Shown here one piece after another: positions 20,695 through 31,956 of a DNA stretch of 64,000 bases. Below the pieces are notes generated by a model. The model had not been told where the DNA came from. It ran no database searches and saw only the letters and a list, made by a program, of their open reading frames with translations. Origin of the DNA: Aeromicrobium erythreum (GTDB taxonomy: Bacteria > Actinomycetota > Actinomycetes > Propionibacteriales > Nocardioidaceae). The first letter of the stretch is position 1. Each line of letters opens with the position of its first letter. A program made the translations under genes and the position numbers. The DNA is taken from NCBI RefSeq assembly GCF_001509405.1, contig NZ_CP011502.1, positions 3,472,001 through 3,536,000 of the forward strand. Reading direction: 5' to 3'.

Positions 20695-20780
20695 TGGTGC
20701 GCGAGGGGGGATTTGAACCCCCACGCCCTTGCGGACACTGGCACCTGAAGCCAGCGCGTCTGCCGTTCCGCCACTCGCGC
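20695..20780 (-). tRNA. tRNA-Leu (anticodon CAG)
   Basis: Read on the minus strand, a 7-bp acceptor stem (GCGCGAG/CTCGCGC) is followed by discriminator A and an encoded CCA. The anticodon arm is CTGGC-TTCAGGT-GCCAG with anticodon CAG, there is a long class II variable arm, and the T-arm has GGTTCAAATC. The location beside fhaA matches other actinobacteria. It marks the right edge of the putative island. Confidence 0.95.
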
Positions 20781-22275: not shown

Positions 22276-23589
22276 ATGTCCCTCACCCTGCGCTACGTCG
22301 CGCTCACCGACGTCGGTCTGCGCCGCTCCAGCAACCAGGACTCCGGCTACGCGAGCAGCCGCCTCATCGCCGTCGCCGACGGCATGGGCGGCGCGGCCGC
22401 CGGCGACCTCGCCTCGGCCGAGACCATGAACGTCATCCGCCAGCTCGACCGCGAGCTGCCCGAGATCGACCCGCTCGAGGCGCTCCAGAAGGCCGTCGCC
22501 CACGCCAACCAGCGCCTCGGCGAGCTCGTCGCCGAGGACCCGTCGGTCGAGGGCATGGGCACCACGCTCGAGGCGATGCTGTGGGACGGCGAGCGCTTCG
22601 CCACCGCCCACATCGGCGACTCGCGCGCGTACCTCCTGCGCGACGGCGAGCTGACCCAGATCAGCACCGACCACACGTTCGTGCAGAGCCTCGTGGAGGA
22701 GGGGAAGCTGACGCCCGAGGAGGCGCGCGTGCACCCGCACCGCTCCCTCCTGCTGCGCGTCATGCTCGGCCGCGACGACAACGACGCCGACCTCGAGTGG
22801 TTCGAGGGGCAGGTTGGCGACCGCTTCCTGCTGTGCAGCGACGGTCTGTCCGACATGGTCGACGACGCCACCATCCAGCAGCTGCTCAGCGCCGAGACCA
22901 TCGACCAGGCCGCGTCCGACCTGGTCCGCACTGCGCTCGAGAACGGCGGCTACGACAACGTCACCGTCGTCATCGGCGAGCTCGTGCCCTCCGGTGCCGT
23001 GTCGGAAGAGGAGCTCTCGTCGGCCGACGGACGCCCGCAGCTCGTCGGCGCGGCCGCAGAGGGACCCCGCCCCCGCACCGGCAACGCCTCCGGTGGCTCC
23101 GGGAAGGCCCGCTCGCGCGAGGAGCGCAAGGAGCGCAGGCGCGAGAAGGAGGTCGACCCCGAGGAGCTGCGCTACGCGCCGCGCCCGCCGAGCAAGTGGC
23201 GCTGGGTGCGCCGCCTCGTCGCCCTCGCCGTCGTCGTAGGCATCGTCGCCGCCGGCGCGTTCTACGCCTACCGCTGGTCGCAGGACCAGTACTACGTGGC
23301 CTCCGCCGACGGCAAGGTCGTCATCTACCGCGGCGTCCAGGCCGACCTGCCGCTCGTCACCCTCAAGCACGTCGACGAGGTCACCGACGTCGAGCTCGAC
23401 ACCCTGCCCACCTTCCGCGCGCAGCAGGTGCGCGGCGGCATCGAGGCCGACAGCCGCGCCGACGCCGAGCAGATCGTCGAGAACCTGCGCGGCCTCGCCG
23501 AGGAGCCCGAGCCGTCGCCCTCGCCGAGCCCCTCCCCCTCGCCGTCCCCCTCCGCGTCGCGCACCGCCGACCGGGAGCGGTCCGCATGA
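22276..23589 (+). CDS. pstP: PstP: PP2C-family Ser/Thr phosphatase
   Basis: This 437-aa membrane phosphatase has an N-terminal PP2C domain (1-240) with SNQDSGY, VADGMGGAAAGD, HIGDSRAYLL, LLCSDGLSDMV and YDNVTVVIGE, the metal-binding aspartates of bacterial PPM enzymes. A basic linker, one membrane helix (LVALAVVVGIVAAGAFYAY, around 315-333) and an extracytoplasmic tail ending in a Ser/Pro repeat follow. It removes phosphates from PknB and its substrates. The stop overlaps the rodA start (ATGA). Confidence 0.95.
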   Translation: MSLTLRYVALTDVGLRRSSNQDSGYASSRLIAVADGMGGAAAGDLASAETMNVIRQLDRELPEIDPLEALQKAVAHANQRLGELVAEDPSVEGMGTTLEAMLWDGERFATAHIGDSRAYLLRDGELTQISTDHTFVQSLVEEGKLTPEEARVHPHRSLLLRVMLGRDDNDADLEWFEGQVGDRFLLCSDGLSDMVDDATIQQLLSAETIDQAASDLVRTALENGGYDNVTVVIGELVPSGAVSEEELSSADGRPQLVGAAAEGPRPRTGNASGGSGKARSREERKERRREKEVDPEELRYAPRPPSKWRWVRRLVALAVVVGIVAAGAFYAYRWSQDQYYVASADGKVVIYRGVQADLPLVTLKHVDEVTDVELDTLPTFRAQQVRGGIEADSRADAEQIVENLRGLAEEPEPSPSPSPSPSPSPSASRTADRERSA

Positions 23590-24962
23590 GCACACCCACC
23601 CTGGTCCCGCGCAAGCGACGCGGGGCCGAGCTCACCCTGACCCTGCTCGCCGTGCTCATCGGCGTCGGCGCCTACTGCGCCGTCGGCCTCGGCGCCGAGG
23701 GTCGCGTGCCGGCCGACGCGCTGCGGCTCGTGATCTTCCTGGTCGCGGCCGCCGTCGCCACGCACCTGCTCGTCCGCAAGGTCGCGCCCTACGCCGACCC
23801 CGTCCTGCTGCCGCTGGTCATCTGCCTCAACGGGCTGGGACTGGCGATGATCTACCGCATCGACCTCGGCTACCAGGCGATGGGCAACGACGCGTTTGGC
23901 CCGCTCGCCACCAACCAGCTCATGTGGTCGGGCATCGGCATCGCCCTGTTCGCCGTCGTGCTGCTCGTCATCCGCGACCACCGTCGTCTGCAGGCCTACA
24001 CCTACACCTTCGGCTTCGTCGCGCTCGCGCTGCTGGTGCTGCCGCTGCTGCCCGTCATCGGGCAGAACATCCGCGGCGCGCGCATCTGGATCAACATCGG
24101 CCCGTTCAGCTTCCAGCCCGGCGAGGCCGCCAAGATCTGCCTGGCCATCTTCTTCGCCGGCTACCTCGTCGTGAAGCGCGACGCCCTCGCGCTCGCCGGC
24201 CGACGCTTCGCCGGGATCGACCTCCCGCGCGGCCGCGACCTCGGCCCCATCGGCGCGGCCTGGCTGATCAGCATCGCCATCCTCGTCTTCCAGCGCGACC
24301 TCGGCTCGTCGCTGCTGTTCTTCGGCCTGTTCGTCGTCATGCTCTACATCGCCACCGAGCGGCCGGGCTGGCTCGTCGTCGGCGGCAGCCTGTTCGTGGC
24401 CGGCGCCTACTTCGGCTACCTCGCGTTCGGGCACGTGCGCGTGCGCTTCGACGCCTGGCTCGACCCCTTCTCCGACCCCGACCGCAACGGGCAGATCATC
24501 AACGGTCTGTTCGGGATGGCCTACGGCGGCGTGCTCGGCACCGGCTGGGGGCAGGGCAGCCCCCAGCTCACCCCGTTCGCGTTCTCGGACTTCATCGCCT
24601 CCGCGATGGGCGAGGAGCTCGGCCTGACCGGACTCATGGCGATCCTCGTCATCTACGGCCTGGTCGTCGAGCGCGGCATGCGCATCGCGCTCACCTGCCG
24701 TGACGCGTTCGGCAAGCTGCTCGCCGCCGGCCTCGCCGTCTCGATGGCGCTGCAGATCTTCGTCGTCATCGGCGGCGTCACCCGCCTCATCCCGCTGACC
24801 GGCCTGACCACGCCGTTCATGGCGCAGGGCGGCTCGTCCGTGGTCATGAACTGGGCCATCATCGCGCTGCTCCTGCGCATCAGCGACCAGACCCGACGCC
24901 CCGCGCCCGAGGTGTCGCAGTTCGACCACGACGAGGAGACCCAGGTGGTGAAGCTGTCGTGA
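23586..24962 (+). CDS. rodA: RodA/FtsW-type SEDS peptidoglycan polymerase
   Basis: This 458-aa polytopic protein has roughly ten to twelve membrane segments. SEDS motifs include GARIWINIGPFSFQPGEAAK with the conserved Gln-Pro-(G/S)-Glu, RDLGSSLLFFG with the catalytic Asp, and DPDRNGQIINGLFG plus SDFIASAMGEELG near the C-terminus. It polymerises lipid II for cell elongation together with the class B PBP encoded next door. It overlaps the pstP stop and pbpA start by 4 bases each. Confidence 0.94.
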   Translation: MSTPTLVPRKRRGAELTLTLLAVLIGVGAYCAVGLGAEGRVPADALRLVIFLVAAAVATHLLVRKVAPYADPVLLPLVICLNGLGLAMIYRIDLGYQAMGNDAFGPLATNQLMWSGIGIALFAVVLLVIRDHRRLQAYTYTFGFVALALLVLPLLPVIGQNIRGARIWINIGPFSFQPGEAAKICLAIFFAGYLVVKRDALALAGRRFAGIDLPRGRDLGPIGAAWLISIAILVFQRDLGSSLLFFGLFVVMLYIATERPGWLVVGGSLFVAGAYFGYLAFGHVRVRFDAWLDPFSDPDRNGQIINGLFGMAYGGVLGTGWGQGSPQLTPFAFSDFIASAMGEELGLTGLMAILVIYGLVVERGMRIALTCRDAFGKLLAAGLAVSMALQIFVVIGGVTRLIPLTGLTTPFMAQGGSSVVMNWAIIALLLRISDQTRRPAPEVSQFDHDEETQVVKLS

Positions 24963-26428
24963 ACAAGCCCATCCGCAACCTCGCCGTCGCCTGCCTCGTG
25001 CTGTTCGCGGCGCTGCTGATCAACGTCAACTACGTGCAGTTCGTCGAGGCCGGCGACCTCAACGCGCGCCAGGGCAACAAGCGCGTCATCGACGCCGACT
25101 TCAGCCGCGACCGCGGCGCGATCCTCGTGGGCGACGAGCCCGTCGCCGAGAGCAAGCCGAGCAAGGACCAGTACAAGTTCCAGCGGGTGTACCCGCAGTC
25201 GACGCTGTACGCCCCGCTCACCGGCTACTTCTCCTACATCTACGGCAGCGCCAACCTCGAGCGCTCGCAGAACCAGGTGCTGTCCGGCAGCGACAACCGG
25301 CTCTTCGTCAGCCGCGTCGTCGACCTGCTCGCCAACAAGAAGCCCCAGGGCGGCAGCGTCGAGCTGACCATCAACCCGCGCGCGCAGAAGGTCGCCGCGA
25401 GCGGCCTGGAGGCGCTCGGCGAGGGCACGAAGGGCGCCGTCGCGGCGCTCGACCCCAAGACGGGCGCCGTGCTCGCGATGGTCAGCCAGCCCTCCTACGA
25501 CCCCAACGTGCTCGCCAGCCACGACTTCTCGAAGGTCACCGAGGCGATGAAGCGTCTGCAGGCCAACGAGGACGACCCGCTGACCAACCGCGCGACGCAG
25601 CAGATCCTCCCGCCCGGCTCGACGTTCAAGCTCGTCACGGCCGCCGCGGCGCTGGAGGACCTCAACCTCAAGGCCGACAGCCGCGTGAAGGGTGGCGCCA
25701 GCCTCTCCTTCCCCGGCATCCAGTACACGCTGCCCAACGAGAACGGCGGCAACTGCGGCGGCGACCCGATCACCTTCGAGCAGGCCCTGCAGGTCTCCTG
25801 CAACGTCTCCTTCGGCGACCTGGCCGGCAAGATCGGCCAGGACAAGCTCGACGAGCAAGCCCGCAAGTTCGGCTTCGGCACCGACCCGCTCGAGGGCCTG
25901 GCCAGCAACGCCAGCCAGTTCACGGCCGAGGGCACCGACCTGGAGGCCCCGCAGCTCGCGCAGAGCGGCATCGGTCAGTTCGAGGTCGCGGCCACCCCGC
26001 TGCAGATGGCGATGGTGGGCGCCGGCATCGCCAACGACGGCGTCGTCATGAAGCCGCAGGTGGTCAAGTCGGTCCGCTCGCCCAGCCTGCGCGTGCTCGA
26101 CTCGCTGGAGCCGGAAGAGCTCGACCGCGCCATGAGCGCCGACAACGCGGCGATCCTGCGCTCGATGATGGTGGCGACCGTCCAGTCGGGCACCGCCACG
26201 TCGGCGCAGATCCCCGGCGTCCAGGTGGGCGCCAAGACCGGCACCGCGCAGTCGACCCCCGACCGACCCCCCTACGCCTGGTTCGTGGCCCTCGCCCCGG
26301 CGAACGACCCCAAGGTCGCCGTCGCCGTCGTCGTCGAGTCCTCGAGCACGGCCCGCAACGAGATCGCCGGTGGACGCCTCGCCGGCCCCATCGCACGCTC
26401 CGTCATCGAGGCGGTGCTCGGTGAGTGA
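24959..26428 (+). CDS. pbpA: PbpA: class B penicillin-binding protein
   Basis: This 489-aa protein starts at GTG within ATGA-like overlap with rodA. It has a short cytoplasmic tail and one membrane anchor (AVACLVLFAALLINVNYVQF). The transpeptidase domain has the SxxK motif in PPGSTFKLVTAA, SxN in SCNVSFGD and KTGTAQ near the C-terminus. The compact N-terminal domain is typical of actinobacterial PbpA. It crosslinks peptidoglycan made by the adjacent SEDS protein, in the periplasmic space. pknB follows after 28 bases. Confidence 0.95.
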   Translation: MNKPIRNLAVACLVLFAALLINVNYVQFVEAGDLNARQGNKRVIDADFSRDRGAILVGDEPVAESKPSKDQYKFQRVYPQSTLYAPLTGYFSYIYGSANLERSQNQVLSGSDNRLFVSRVVDLLANKKPQGGSVELTINPRAQKVAASGLEALGEGTKGAVAALDPKTGAVLAMVSQPSYDPNVLASHDFSKVTEAMKRLQANEDDPLTNRATQQILPPGSTFKLVTAAAALEDLNLKADSRVKGGASLSFPGIQYTLPNENGGNCGGDPITFEQALQVSCNVSFGDLAGKIGQDKLDEQARKFGFGTDPLEGLASNASQFTAEGTDLEAPQLAQSGIGQFEVAATPLQMAMVGAGIANDGVVMKPQVVKSVRSPSLRVLDSLEPEELDRAMSADNAAILRSMMVATVQSGTATSAQIPGVQVGAKTGTAQSTPDRPPYAWFVALAPANDPKVAVAVVVESSSTARNEIAGGRLAGPIARSVIEAVLGE

Positions 26429-26456
26429 CTTCGACCCCCCTAGGGAGAGTGACCCC

Positions 26457-28232
26457 ATGACCGGATCCGGCGACGAGCCCATCCTGCTCGGCGAGCGCTA
26501 CGAGCTCGGCGGGCTGCTCGGTCGCGGAGGCATGGCCGACGTCCGCGTCGCGCGCGACCTGCGCCTCGGCCGCACCGTGGCCATCAAGCAGCTGCGCGCC
26601 GACCTGTCCTCCGACGACACCTTCCAGGCCCGCTTCCGCCGCGAGGCGCAGTCGGCCGCCGCACTGAACCACCCCGCGATCGTCGCCGTCTACGACACGG
26701 GCGAGTCGACCGACAAGCACGGCAACCACATCCCGTACATCGTCATGGAGTACGTGGAGGGCCAGACGCTGCGCGAGATCATGCGCGACGACCGCAAGAT
26801 CCTGCCCGAGCGCGCCCTGTCGATCACGGCCGACGTGCTCAGCGCGCTCGACTACTCGCACCGCTCCGGCATCATCCACCGCGACATCAAGCCCGCCAAC
26901 GTCATGCTGACGCCGTCGGGCCAGGTCAAGGTCATGGACTTCGGCATCGCCCGCGCGATCGCCGACTCCTCCAGCGCGATGACGCAGACCGCGGCGGTCA
27001 TCGGCACCGCTCAGTACCTGTCGCCCGAGCAGGCCCGGGGCGAGACCGTCGACGCCCGCTCCGACATCTACTCCACCGGCTGCCTGCTGTACGAGCTGCT
27101 CACCGGACGTCCGCCGTTCGTCGGCGACAGCCCCGTGTCGGTCGCCTACCAGCACGTCCGCGAGGACGCCCGACCGCCGTCGCAGCTGAACCCCGAGGTG
27201 ACGCAGGCCGTCGACCACATCGTCGCGAAGTCGCTCGCGAAGCGCACCGACGACCGCTACCAGTCGGCCGCCGACATGCGCAAGGACCTCGAGCGGGCCA
27301 TCGCCGGCCAGCAGGTCGAGGCCCCGACCGCGGCCACCTCGGTCGTGCCGGCCGCGACCGCCGTCGCCCCGGCCGTGGCGGCCGCCGCGGCCACCGGCAC
27401 GCAGCCCGCCGTCGAGGACGAGGAGGAGCGCAAGAACCGCAAGCCGCTGTACTGGGCGCTCGCGATCCTGCTGCTCCTGCTGCTCGCCGGCATCGGCATC
27501 TACGCCTACAACCAGGCCAACCAGCCCCCGCCGGCGCCCGCCCAGGTCGAGGTCCCCGACGTCACCGGCCAGGACGCCGTCGCGGCGCAGCGGACGCTCG
27601 AGCGCGACGGCTTCACCGTGCAGACGCAGGAGCGCGCCGACGGCGACGTCGAGGAGGGCAACGTCGTCTCCCAGGACCCCGAAGGCGGCACCGAGGTCGA
27701 CAAGGGGACCGAGGTGACGCTGGTCGTCTCCACCGGACCGGCGCAGGTCCAGGTGCCCAACGTCGTCGGCTACACCTTCGACGAGGCGAAGGCCGCGCTC
27801 GAGGGGCAGGGGCTCAAGGTCAAGCGCGAGGAACGCGCGTCGGACCAGAGCCGCAACTCCGTCATCAACACCAACCCCGCGGCCGGCGTCAGCGTCGACG
27901 CCGGCACGACGGTCACCGTCATCGTGTCGCAGGGCGAGGTACAGGTGCCCAACCTGGTCGGCATGACGCAGGAGGAGGCGGAGAAGACCCTGCAGGAGGC
28001 CGACCTCGAGGTCTCGGTCACCGAGGACCCGATCGCCACCGCACCGAAGGGCCAGGTCACCAACCAGGGCACGCCGGCGGGCACGTCGGTGCCGCCGGGC
28101 ACCACCATCGAGATCACGGTGTCGAGCAACGAGGGCGACGACCAGGGCGGCGACCAGGCCGACGGCAACGGTGACGCCCCGGACGGCAACGGCGACGGCG
28201 CCGCCGACCTCGACCTCACCCCCGGGCAGTAG
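26457..28232 (+). CDS. pknB: PknB: PASTA-domain Ser/Thr protein kinase
   Basis: This 591-aa receptor kinase has a cytoplasmic kinase domain (10-275) with GLLGRGGMADV, the lysine in AIKQLRADL, HRDIKPANVM, DFGIAR and SPEQARGE. Next come an Ala-rich juxtamembrane part, a membrane helix (LYWALAILLLLLLAGIGIYA) and three PASTA repeats, each starting V-x-VP(D/N)(V/L)xG. The Asp/Gly-rich tail is disordered. PASTA domains bind muropeptides or lipid II, linking wall status to division. The ATG at 26457 has AGGGAGAG upstream; a GTG at 26421 overlapping pbpA is an alternative. Confidence 0.94.
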   Translation: MTGSGDEPILLGERYELGGLLGRGGMADVRVARDLRLGRTVAIKQLRADLSSDDTFQARFRREAQSAAALNHPAIVAVYDTGESTDKHGNHIPYIVMEYVEGQTLREIMRDDRKILPERALSITADVLSALDYSHRSGIIHRDIKPANVMLTPSGQVKVMDFGIARAIADSSSAMTQTAAVIGTAQYLSPEQARGETVDARSDIYSTGCLLYELLTGRPPFVGDSPVSVAYQHVREDARPPSQLNPEVTQAVDHIVAKSLAKRTDDRYQSAADMRKDLERAIAGQQVEAPTAATSVVPAATAVAPAVAAAAATGTQPAVEDEEERKNRKPLYWALAILLLLLLAGIGIYAYNQANQPPPAPAQVEVPDVTGQDAVAAQRTLERDGFTVQTQERADGDVEEGNVVSQDPEGGTEVDKGTEVTLVVSTGPAQVQVPNVVGYTFDEAKAALEGQGLKVKREERASDQSRNSVINTNPAAGVSVDAGTTVTVIVSQGEVQVPNLVGMTQEEAEKTLQEADLEVSVTEDPIATAPKGQVTNQGTPAGTSVPPGTTIEITVSSNEGDDQGGDQADGNGDAPDGNGDGAADLDLTPGQ

Positions 28233-28237
28233 CCGGA

Positions 28238-28271
28238 CTCTCCTGACCGGCGGCCACGCCGGTCAGGAGAG
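28238..28271. terminator. Bidirectional terminator between pknB and DUF881 gene
   Basis: Perfect 14-bp arms (CTCTCCTGACCGGC) with a 6-base loop begin 5 bases after the pknB stop and overlap the stop of the convergent DUF881 gene. Confidence 0.75.
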
Positions 28272-29006
28272 CGCCGACGCGTACCGCAGGACGGTCGCGC
28301 CACCGTAGGGCGCGACCACCAGGTCGTCGCCCGTGGTGACCTTCAGGCCGAGCCGGAACTTCGTCACGTAGCGCTCGAAGTTCGCCACCTCGGGGGACGA
28401 GCCGAGCGAGTAGGTCATGCCGGGCACGTCGCCCACCGCCTCGATGACGTACGGCGGCGAGAACGGCCGCCCGTCGATGATGACGTTGGAGCCGACGCAC
28501 ACGATCGCCGTCGTCGACACGAGCCGCTGGCCCTGCAGGCTCACGGCCTCGGCGCCCCCGGCCCACAGGGCGTTGACGAACGCCTGCAGGTCCTGCTGGT
28601 GCACGACGAGGTAGTTCGGGTCGATCCCGGCGGAGTCGGCGTCGCGCGGGGCGTCGGTCAGCGTGACCCGCATGCCCGGCCCGCGCACCGTGCTGAGCCC
28701 GGCCAGGTCGCGCAGGGTGCGCAGCCGTCGCACGATCGCCTCGACCCCGCTGGCGTCGTCGGCAGCGGCGGTCGCGGCGTCGATCTCGCGCTGCAGGTCG
28801 ACCACGTCGGCCTGTCGCTGCTCGACCCGACGCTCCCGCTCGCCGACCAGCGACGCGACGTCGCCACCGGCCGGTCGCAGGTCCTGGCCGTCGGACGTGC
28901 GGTGCGCGGCCGCGGCGGTGAGGCCGGCCACCAGGCAGACCCCGAGCACCGCGACGGACCAGCCGCGCGACGACCTCGTCCGCGAGCGTGCACGCGTCCC
29001 CGACAT
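28263..29006 (-). CDS. DUF881 family membrane protein
   Basis: This 247-aa protein has a basic N-terminus and a single membrane anchor (WSVAVLGVCLVAGLTAAAAH). A short coiled coil (RRVEQRQADVVDLQREIDAA) and the DUF881 domain with GPGMRVTLTDAP, DLQAFVNALWAGGAEAVSLQ and PPYVIEAVGD follow. DUF881 proteins resemble SpoIIQ/YlxW-like division-associated proteins and in actinobacteria are encoded near crgA and pknB, as here. The biochemical role is unknown. The ATG at 29006 places the anchor at the usual distance. Confidence 0.88.
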   Translation of the reverse strand: MSGTRARSRTRSSRGWSVAVLGVCLVAGLTAAAAHRTSDGQDLRPAGGDVASLVGERERRVEQRQADVVDLQREIDAATAAADDASGVEAIVRRLRTLRDLAGLSTVRGPGMRVTLTDAPRDADSAGIDPNYLVVHQQDLQAFVNALWAGGAEAVSLQGQRLVSTTAIVCVGSNVIIDGRPFSPPYVIEAVGDVPGMTYSLGSSPEVANFERYVTKFRLGLKVTTGDDLVVAPYGGATVLRYASALS

Positions 29007-29056
29007 GCGAGCACCTCTCCCCACTCCGACACCGTCCGCGACGCCGACTACGCTAG

Positions 29057-29092
29057 CCCAGAACCTGCAGACGGCCCAGAACCTGCAGACGG
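29057..29092. repeat. Two tandem 18-bp repeats upstream of crgA
   Basis: CCCAGAACCTGCAGACGG occurs twice head to tail (29057-29074 and 29075-29092) in the divergent promoter region between the DUF881 gene and crgA, ending 17 bases before the crgA start. Confidence 0.85.
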
Positions 29093-29109
29093 CACCGAAA
29101 GAGATCCCC

Positions 29110-29565
29110 GTGGCCAAGAACAGCACCCCGAGCACGGTCCGCACGCGCCGAGGCGGCTGGGCGCACCCGCTCGCCCTGCTGCTGCTGGTGGTGGCCGTCG
29201 CCTGGGCGGTCGGCGCCTTCTTCACGGTCTCCGACCGCTCGTTCCCGAAGATCGGCGCGATCCCGGGCCTGTTCGACCTCGGCGCCTGGAACTTCGCGAT
29301 CGCCGCGGTCATCGCGTTCGCCGCCTCGTCGGTCGCCTCGCGCACCCGCCCCGAGCCCGAGCCCGGCACGCCCACCGGCAGCCGGTTCGCCGCGCCGCTG
29401 ATGATCGCGTCGGCCGTCGTCGGCCTGCTGTGGATCGTGGTCTTCTACGTCATCTCCGGCACCGACATCACCATCCCGGTCTACTCCGACCTCGGCGACT
29501 GGAACATCGTCATCGGCATGGGCTTCATCGTGGCCGCGTTCGGCTTCGCGATGAAGTGGGAGTGA
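29110..29565 (+). CDS. crgA: CrgA-like cell division protein with duplicated domain
   Basis: This 151-aa protein has four membrane helices; ordinary CrgA has about 80-95 aa and two. The second half (SRFAAPLMIASAVVGLLWIV, then VFYVISG, IPVY, DLGDWNIVIGMGF, FAMKWE) is a standard CrgA. The first half has the same plan: HPLALLLLVVAVAWAVGAFF, IPGLFDLGAWNFAIAAVIAF. An internal tandem duplication is therefore likely. CrgA recruits FtsZ, FtsQ and PBPs at the septum. The start is a GTG at 29110 with a GAAAGAG site; it is located near pknB as in other actinobacteria. Confidence 0.85.
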   Translation: MAKNSTPSTVRTRRGGWAHPLALLLLVVAVAWAVGAFFTVSDRSFPKIGAIPGLFDLGAWNFAIAAVIAFAASSVASRTRPEPEPGTPTGSRFAAPLMIASAVVGLLWIVVFYVISGTDITIPVYSDLGDWNIVIGMGFIVAAFGFAMKWE

Positions 29566-29568
29566 GCC

Positions 29569-30201
29569 CTACCGGAACGTGACCTGGTCGGCGGGCACGT
29601 GGCCGTGCTCGTTGTAGGTGAGCAGCCGCGTGCCGCCGCGCCCGACGATGAGCGTGGTCACCGACGCGTTCACCACCACCCGGTTGAGCGGGATGAACAG
29701 CGACGCGTCACCCGCCAGCAGGTGCGACGCGACCAACGCGATCGGCCCGCCCGACGTGAACACCGCGACGCGTCGGCCCGACCCGGCCTGCGCGACGGCC
29801 TCGTCGAGTGCGCGCAGCACCCGGGCGGAGAACTCCGCGAACGACTCGACCGGTGACGGCGCCCCGCTGACCCACGCGCCGAGCGCGGCGTCGAGGTGCG
29901 CCTGGAACTCGCGAGGGTCCGTCGTCGGCGTGACCTTCTCGCCCGCCAGGGCGAGGTGGTCGTACTCGTCCCACCCGGCGTCGACGTCGTAGAGGTCGCC
30001 GTCGACCGCGTCGAGCACCGCGACGGCGGTCTGGGCGTGCCGTCGCAGCGAGCCGGCCACCGACCAGTGCGGCCGGAAGTCGGCCGCCTCCCAGGCGAGC
30101 CCGAGCCAGCTCCCCTGACGGGTGCCGAGGGCGGAGAGCTGGTCGTAGTCGTCGCTGCCGAACGAGGCCTGGCCGTGCCGGATCAGATGGATGGCGCCCA
30201 C
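29569..30201 (-). CDS. Histidine phosphatase family protein
   Basis: This 210-aa branch-1 histidine phosphatase has the N-terminal HLIRHGQASFGSDDYDQLS (catalytic RHG) and the conserved GSLRRHAQTAVAVLD. The second histidine region is replaced by VFTSGGPIALVASHLL, the TSGG variant seen in many actinobacterial members. It is convergent with crgA (3-bp gap) and divergent from the carotenoid operon. The substrate is unknown. Confidence 0.88.
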   Translation of the reverse strand: MGAIHLIRHGQASFGSDDYDQLSALGTRQGSWLGLAWEAADFRPHWSVAGSLRRHAQTAVAVLDAVDGDLYDVDAGWDEYDHLALAGEKVTPTTDPREFQAHLDAALGAWVSGAPSPVESFAEFSARVLRALDEAVAQAGSGRRVAVFTSGGPIALVASHLLAGDASLFIPLNRVVVNASVTTLIVGRGGTRLLTYNEHGHVPADQVTFR

Positions 30202-30300
30202 GGTCGCAGGCTAGCGGGTGTCGGGCGGGCCCGTCGCCGGGCGGACCGGCGGCGTGTCCGAGAGGATGGAGGGGACCCAGGGGACGGAGGCGGCACCGCG

Positions 30301-31956
30301 ATGACCGCGATCGAGAGCGAGCAGGACCTGGTCGTCCTGCTGGACGACGACGGCACACCCACCGGCACGGCGCCGCGCCTCGACGTGCACGGCGCCGACA
30401 CGCCGCTGCACCAGGCGTTCTCGGTGCACCTGTTCGACGACGCCGGCCGGGTGCTCCTGACCCGCCGGGCGCTCTCGAAGCGGACCTGGCCCGGCGTCTG
30501 GACCAACTCGTGCTGCGGGCACCCCCGGCCCGGCGAGGCGGTCGAGGACGCCGTGCGTCGGCGCGTCCGCGAGGAGCTCGGAGTGGAGGTGCGCGACCTG
30601 CGTCTGCTGCTGCCCGACTTCCGTTACCGCGCCGTCGACGCCAGCGGTGTGGTCGAGAACGAGGTCTGCCCCGTCTTCGTCGCCCGCGCGGACGGGCCCC
30701 TCTCGCCCGACCCGGACGAGGTCGGCGAGCACGCCTGGGTCGCCTGGTCCGACCTCGTGGCCGCCGCGCGTGCCACGCCGGCCGTCTACAGCCCGTGGTC
30801 GGTGCTTCAGGTGCCGCAGCTCGACGCCGAGCGTGCCCGGCTCCCCCTCGGCCCGCCGCCCGCGGGCCGGCTCGAGTCGTCGGACGCCGACGCGCCGGTG
30901 CGCGTCACGCTCGACGCCGTCAGCGACCTGCTGTCGGCCGAGCTCGCCTGGATGGGCACCGTCTGGGAAGGCCTCGCGCCGGCGGGCACCCCCGGACCCC
31001 TCACCGACGACCTGCCCGGATGGCTGCACACGCTGCTGCAGGGTCGGGGCAAGCGGCTGCGTCCGCAGATGTGCCACTGGGGCTTCGTCGCCGCCGGCGG
31101 GACGCTCGCGACACCCGCCCACGACGACGTCGTCCGCGTGGCTGCCGCGCTGGAGACCCTGCACCTCTTCGCGCTGGTGCACGACGACGTGATGGACCAG
31201 TCGGGCGAGCGACGCGGCGCTGCGGCCGCGCACGTCGTCGCCGCGGCCCAGCACCGCGCAGCACGGGCGCACGGCGACGCCACCCGCTTCGGCGAGAACG
31301 TCGCCATCCTTCTCGGCGACCTGGCCCACCACGAGGCCGACCGGCTCGTGCACACGCTGCCCGCGGTCCTGCGCGAGTCCTGGTACCAGCTGACCCTCGA
31401 GCTGATCGCCGGCCAGCGGGCCGACCTCACCGGGGCGGCCAGCCGTCGGACCGACCTCGCGCACGTCGAGGCGGTCGCGGTGCTCAAGTCCGGCGCGTAC
31501 ACCGTGGCCCGACCGCTGCAGCTCGGCGCGATCGCCGCCGGTGCCACCGCGGCGCAGCGCGAGGTGCTCGACCGCTTCGGGCTGCACCTCGGCCGCGCGT
31601 TCGCCTGGCGCGACGACGTGCTGGGCGTCTGGGGCGACCCCGACGTCACCGGCAAGCCGTCGGGCGACGACCTGCGCGAGGGCAAGACCACCATGATCTG
31701 GGCGCTCGGTGCCGAGCGGCTCACGGGCGAGGCCGCCGCCGCGATGACGCGGGTCGGCACGGCCGAGGCACGTCCCGGCGACGTCGCCCTGCTGCAGCGC
31801 GCGCTCGAGGAGTCCGGCGTCCGCCAGGACGTCGAGCAGCGCATCGTCGACGAGACCGAGCGTGCCGAGCAGGCCCTCGTCGGCTCCCCCCTGACCGCGG
31901 CCGGCGTCGCCGGACTGCGCGCGGTCGCCCGCACCGTCTCCTGGAGGTCCGCATGA
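30301..31956 (+). CDS. crtE: Fused isopentenyl-diphosphate isomerase / polyprenyl diphosphate synthase
   Basis: This 551-aa bifunctional protein joins two carotenoid-precursor enzymes. Residues 1-185 are type I IDI: TNSCCGHPRPGE with the catalytic Cys around 71-72, and ENEVCPVF with the catalytic Glu. Residues about 205-551 are a trans-prenyltransferase with first Asp-rich motif HDDVMDQ (295-299) and second motif WRDDVLGVWGD (438-446). Type I IDI interconverts IPP and DMAPP and the synthase extends them to GGPP, so fusion channels substrates. The stop overlaps the crtI start (ATGA-type). It heads the carotenoid operon. Confidence 0.9.
   Translation: MTAIESEQDLVVLLDDDGTPTGTAPRLDVHGADTPLHQAFSVHLFDDAGRVLLTRRALSKRTWPGVWTNSCCGHPRPGEAVEDAVRRRVREELGVEVRDLRLLLPDFRYRAVDASGVVENEVCPVFVARADGPLSPDPDEVGEHAWVAWSDLVAAARATPAVYSPWSVLQVPQLDAERARLPLGPPPAGRLESSDADAPVRVTLDAVSDLLSAELAWMGTVWEGLAPAGTPGPLTDDLPGWLHTLLQGRGKRLRPQMCHWGFVAAGGTLATPAHDDVVRVAAALETLHLFALVHDDVMDQSGERRGAAAAHVVAAAQHRAARAHGDATRFGENVAILLGDLAHHEADRLVHTLPAVLRESWYQLTLELIAGQRADLTGAASRRTDLAHVEAVAVLKSGAYTVARPLQLGAIAAGATAAQREVLDRFGLHLGRAFAWRDDVLGVWGDPDVTGKPSGDDLREGKTTMIWALGAERLTGEAAAAMTRVGTAEARPGDVALLQRALEESGVRQDVEQRIVDETERAEQALVGSPLTAAGVAGLRAVARTVSWRSA

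Follow-up and report, generated by a model that had tools for sequence, protein, structure and literature searches.

The crgA gene in the analysed part of the genome of the soil bacterium Aeromicrobium erythreum (hereafter the window; the whole stretch of 64,000 nucleotides at positions 3,472,001 to 3,536,000 of contig NZ_CP011502.1) encodes a protein of 151 aa. By its usual description, CrgA is a minimal division protein of two helices. The locus raises the question of whether this protein is composed of two tandem CrgA domains, as an earlier note on the same DNA had proposed, and if so, what the additional domain might do.

Genomic context and organization of the crgA gene

The neighbours of crgA encode FHA, PP2C, RodA/FtsW, penicillin-binding transpeptidase, PknB, and DUF881 proteins (Table 1). 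A gene order beside pknB, pbpA, and rodA together with a DUF881 gene is what we take to be the standard actinobacterial crgA locus, and the window shows this arrangement; the window protein is therefore regarded as an orthologue and not as a paralogue of CrgA. Because the DUF881 ORF as listed overlaps crgA, its true start is placed further in. The GTG start of crgA is backed by relatives that contain VAKN at the same place in their frames (e.g. L033-L036, L062, and L071). The product is organized in the order of a basic tail, an extra hairpin, and the canonical hairpin. Residues 1-17 contain four K/R and no D/E residues, and by analogy with canonical CrgA the tail may serve the same role as there. 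The linker between the two units is probably cytoplasmic, judging from the expected topology.

Two other features of the window were recorded. A tRNA-Leu (cag) gene lies at 20695-20780 on the reverse strand, on the side of the locus that carries the FHA and PP2C genes. An open frame at 29896-31956 on the forward strand combines a NUDIX (IPP isomerase-like) domain with a downstream polyprenyl synthetase domain; it looks like a fused isoprenoid gene and adjoins an ORF for a phytoene-desaturase-like amine oxidoreductase.

Table 1. Features of the crgA locus, with positions in the window.
Feature	Position	Strand	Basis
ORF holding RodA/FtsW; open frame longer than the gene	22581..24962	+	Context
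Penicillin-binding protein (PbpA-like)	24959..26428	+	Context
PknB-like kinase with three PASTA domains; true start further in	26370..28232	+	Context
DUF881 protein ORF	28263..29375	-	Context
crgA, two-unit form, 151 aa, GTG start	29110..29565	+	ORF list and PF06781 matches
N-terminal tail, short and basic (VAKN...), residues 1-16	29110..29157	+	Charge count
First (extra) CrgA unit, residues 17-79	29158..29346	+	PF06781 (24.9-25.5 bits), hhalign, AF2
Predicted helices of the first unit	29161-29229, 29287-29343	+	AF2 residues 18-40 and 60-78, low confidence
Inter-unit linker, residues 80-92	29347..29385	+	Alignment and charges
Second, canonical CrgA unit, residues 93-151, C-terminal FAMKWE	29386..29562	+	PF06781 (66 bits), invariant columns, AF2
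Predicted helices of the second unit	29389-29457, 29500-29559	+	AF2 residues 94-116 and 131-150, low confidence

Two homologous units in a single ORF

The whole window protein scored 86.8 bits against the CrgA family PF06781, above the curated cut-off of 24.8 bits. The second half alone scored 66.1 bits, and the first half, which the earlier note had considered might fail against a CrgA profile, only just exceeded the cut-off (24.9 bits when scored on its own, 25.5 bits in the scan of the genome). The scan of the whole genome (a single contig of 3,629,239 bases) yielded exactly two matches, both of which are units of this ORF, and the ORF is the sole CrgA of the genome. The profile search that had been proposed as a check thus returned the two matches in one ORF that the tandem arrangement predicts.

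The elements PL, VV, W.V, IP, and DLG.WN..I are common to both halves over ~60 aligned columns and occur in the same order, as had been read from the sequence. Local alignment of residues 15-80 with residues 87-151 gave a score of 66, which was reached by none of 2000 plain shuffles and by none of 2000 hydropathy-pattern shuffles. When 10 Aeromicrobium first units were compared with 13 single CrgAs by hhalign, a probability of 97.3 and an E-value of 1.6e-11 were obtained over 57 columns. The first units of the relatives G093, G120, and G011 scored 48-50 bits against PF06781. With a profile built from 107 two-unit proteins, the Mycobacterium tuberculosis CrgA structures (2mmu and 9nm2) matched best at the first unit (E = 3.7e-7); with the window protein alone as the query, the chains of both entries aligned best to the second unit. 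The CrgA equivalog models of NCBIfam (NF002595, NF002597, NF002593, NF001194, and others) matched both halves below their narrow cut-offs (best score, 70.7 bits vs a cut-off of 109), the best alignment of each covers the second unit alone, and none spans both units end to end. The first unit has no terminal KWE/KWR signature but keeps the loop motif DLGxWN.

That the ORF contains two tandem CrgA units is practically certain from these results. A chance likeness of an unrelated two-helix segment would agree with the marginal Pfam score of the first half and with the absence from the Pfam matches of the first halves of Nocardioides G162, G200, G258, and G286, whose ORFs are nevertheless two-unit, but this explanation is in effect refuted by the hhalign E-value, the shuffles (0/4000), the higher scores of the relatives' first units, and the best match of the PDB chains, which in the two-unit profile falls on the first unit.

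Predicted structure

Four helices, instead of the usual two, were predicted by AF2 both for the window protein and for the Nocardioides form, in line with the earlier note. The model of the window protein (49 sequences; pLDDT 66.9, pTM 0.43) is poor, and its two transmembrane helices per unit are predicted with low confidence; that of the Nocardioides sp. JS614 form (L245; 107 sequences; mean pLDDT 87.2, pTM 0.82) is confident and shows a compact arrangement of four long helices plus two short ones in the loops. In the Nocardioides form, the two hairpins are thus very likely to be packed into a single body, and, because the window model is poor, the four-helix packing is carried over to the window protein from this relative by homology.

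Foldseek returned nothing at E <= 0.001 for either model. The best VIA-align rows for the Nocardioides model were mostly designed repeat or helical proteins with Z < 8 and are unspecific. CrgA entries were absent among the structure-search matches listed, and among these matches neither model clearly resembles a solved structure. The weak Foldseek list for the window model includes chains of the mycobacterial respiratory supercomplex.

Distribution in the family Nocardioidaceae

CrgA was found in 288 of the 294 genomes of the family by the profile survey. Match counts alone are misleading because the first unit often scores below the Pfam cut-off, and the ORFs were therefore read directly. In Aeromicrobium, 15 two-unit and 30 one-unit forms were identified in 45 of the 49 surveyed genomes, the CrgA loci of G151, G167, G169, and G171 being left out. 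In Nocardioides (g7), 212 of 215 genomes (190 of the 191 good genomes) match the first-unit profile (A1), and the weakest best match (8.8e-19) is far above what the second unit alone reaches (15-36 bits in the loci read). All 59 further Nocardioides ORFs read contain two units; these were chosen among the A1 matches and thus inform on architecture, not on frequency. Twenty more ORFs of this genus, when inspected, had two units as well. The code g7 was identified as Nocardioides through G288, in which plasmid pNOCA01 of Nocardioides sp. JS614 is present with 100% identity and matching coordinates. Two units are also present in seven further genera (codes g5, g12, g14, g19, g20, g23, and g24), and one unit is present in the loci read of Mumia (g21), g2, g4, g6, g8, g9, and more genera. 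The survey of relatives suggested by the earlier note therefore revealed a widespread form: it is the norm in Nocardioides, is mixed within Aeromicrobium, and is not peculiar to this genome. We conclude that two-unit CrgA is a genuine variant of a known protein and is conserved across the lineage.

A longer version occurs in Nocardioides G277 (L131/L208), where four tandem units, the last of them canonical, form one open frame of 284 aa with PknB nearby. The four units differ from each other, so that they are not an assembly echo, and by homology the protein would contain eight helices. Four matches were also obtained in G683, at least two of them on two different contigs; the ORF read from one of these has two units, and G683 is probably a mixed assembly.

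CrgA outside the family

CrgA is near-universal in Actinomycetes according to the family, order, and class surveys. No tandem form was found among 95 genomes from the order's other families or among 269 genomes of the class outside the order, and when 393 class genomes (family members included) were searched with the unit profile, those outside the family had a single match each. Two matches were found in 6 of the 269 genomes outside the order, with the second match located elsewhere in the genome and never in tandem; these second matches fall in independent CrgA-like ORFs or, for G552, in a Rieske-like one. Among the 95 order genomes, the double match in G373 consists of two identical matches near the two contig ends and was interpreted as an overlap of these ends.

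In four genomes outside Nocardioidaceae, a second CrgA-like hairpin is encoded by a free-standing gene (L136 in G538, L137 in G529, L142 in G648, and L145 in G472), in each case lacking the terminal KWR signature. The CrgA profile also weakly matches the membrane hairpin of Rieske-type (QcrA-like) proteins, with 24.0 and 20.9 bits (G552:C29:27133-27351, L143, and G002:C315:719-898, L147).

History and selection of the additional unit

For these analyses, identical or near-identical rows were removed before the alignments and the unit tree were made, and L005, a single unit passing the threshold, was left out of the two-unit alignments. A PknB tree of 59 rows requires a minimum of three changes of the one/many state and divides Aeromicrobium into three two-unit groups and two one-unit groups; this tree is a quick stand-in for the species tree with open forks, on which gain and loss look alike. 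On the unit tree, all first units fall on one side (support, 98/86), although this tree is based on 66 columns and long branches meet there. The grouping of the first units favours a single old duplication with later losses, but AU tests did not reject separate duplications, be it in Aeromicrobium (p = 0.29) or in Nocardioides (p = 0.25). The other ORFs of 43 Aeromicrobium loci contained no free-standing first unit.

The dN/dS of the first unit was <1 in 25 of 25 pairs of relatives, and the extra unit is under purifying selection. Its dN was higher than that of the second unit in 23 of these pairs, equal to three decimals in L102/L103, and lower in L067/L073. In the alignment of 49 two-unit proteins, 14 columns are invariant, all of them located in the linker or the second unit. 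Over evolutionary time, the extra unit is dispensable because 30 of the 45 Aeromicrobium genomes read have one unit.

Possible roles of the additional hairpin

To our knowledge, the mechanism and the oligomeric state of CrgA are poorly known. Our main reading, to which we assign a probability of ~0.4, is that the tandem hairpin acts as a fixed asymmetric pseudo-dimer in which the second unit is canonical and the first replaces a protomer. The hairpin of the sole crgA, at its usual pbpA-pknB locus, is duplicated in tandem; the second unit would keep the usual CrgA contacts with the septal peptidoglycan machinery, the first would stand in for a second CrgA protomer, and each molecule would be a pseudo-dimer by construction, in which a single FtsZ-facing tail serves two hairpins. 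This is consistent with the pair of PF06781 matches within a single ORF and their absence from the rest of the genome, the shuffles, the hhalign comparison, and the alignments of the M. tuberculosis CrgA chains, as well as with the counts in Nocardioides (212/215 genomes and 59/59 ORFs), the dN/dS values (25/25), the JS614 model, the four-unit form, and the two CrgA chains in PDB entry 9nm2, which may or may not correspond to a biological dimer. Against it stand the poor window model (pLDDT 67, pTM 0.43), the lack of a clear structural match, the one-unit state of 30/45 Aeromicrobium genomes, and the absence of text on CrgA dimers in the accessible portions of the literature searched. Because the KWE/KWR signature is absent from the first unit and its dN is higher in 23/25 pairs, this unit may not do the job of a second CrgA. 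The idea in the earlier note that a covalent dimer could alter the stoichiometry at the septum is no more than a plausible hypothesis, since the units are unequal, with all invariant columns in the linker and the second unit, and since the two-unit form is usual in Nocardioides and mixed within Aeromicrobium.

The chief alternative, which we consider quite possible, is that the first unit serves as an additional docking hairpin for a different or lineage-specific partner and not a mimic of a CrgA dimer. The asymmetric conservation, with invariant columns confined to the linker and the second unit, the faster evolution of the first unit, the longer and variable outer loops of the Nocardioides first units, and the four unlike units in one species all point in this direction, but the first unit retains the family loop motif DLGxWN and packs with the second unit in the confident Nocardioides model. 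Fixation of a duplicated small hairpin without functional gain, by neutral drift or a ratchet with freely varying copy number, is unlikely: the 15 two-unit and 30 one-unit ORFs in the 45 Aeromicrobium genomes read and the three or more state changes on the PknB tree would fit such a process, but the dN/dS of the first unit is <1 in all 25 pairs, and the retention in 212/215 Nocardioides genomes argues against a dispensable passenger there.

A broader and somewhat unlikely proposal is that CrgA of Nocardioidaceae is an evolving tandem-repeat scaffold, in which the hairpin number (1, 2, or 4) would set the number of septal partners per FtsZ-tethered molecule. Returning to the pseudo-dimer, a tandem lineage with close one-unit relatives would allow one to test directly by genetics whether CrgA acts in pairs and which of the hairpins faces which partner, and the Nocardioides form supplies a confident four-helix model open to testing.

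Comparison with known CrgA proteins

In the published accounts, S. coelicolor CrgA is a small protein of 84 aa with one hairpin (PMC4255298), and M. tuberculosis CrgA depends on FtsZ for its localization to the septum, interacts with FtsZ via its N-terminal part, binds FtsQ, FtsI, and PbpA, is required for septal FtsI (PMC3989709), and also binds MmpL3 (PMC6656915). The literature search, which did not reach the primary CrgA papers tried, gave no mention of a two-unit CrgA in the portions seen, and the tandem variant is apparently undescribed. The second unit of the window protein matches CrgA (PF06781; Rv0011c of M. tuberculosis and SCO3854 of S. coelicolor) over the hairpin, and the gene resides at the same locus. 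Canonical CrgA has one hairpin, whereas the window protein does not fit this description, carrying an extra unit that follows the basic tail and precedes the canonical hairpin; with 151 aa and two hairpins, it is thus a variant rather than an ordinary member of the family.

The two-unit CrgA of Nocardioides (JS614, L245) shares the order of tail, unit, linker, and unit with the window protein, to which it is 33% identical, and the Nocardioides first units group with the other first units on the unit tree (98/86). The linkers differ, with a conserved TPLGRGRGVVVGM in Nocardioides vs the TRPEPEPG type in the window protein. The CrgA of G277 has the same terminal canonical unit and PknB nearby, and differs from the window protein by its four units in 284 aa.
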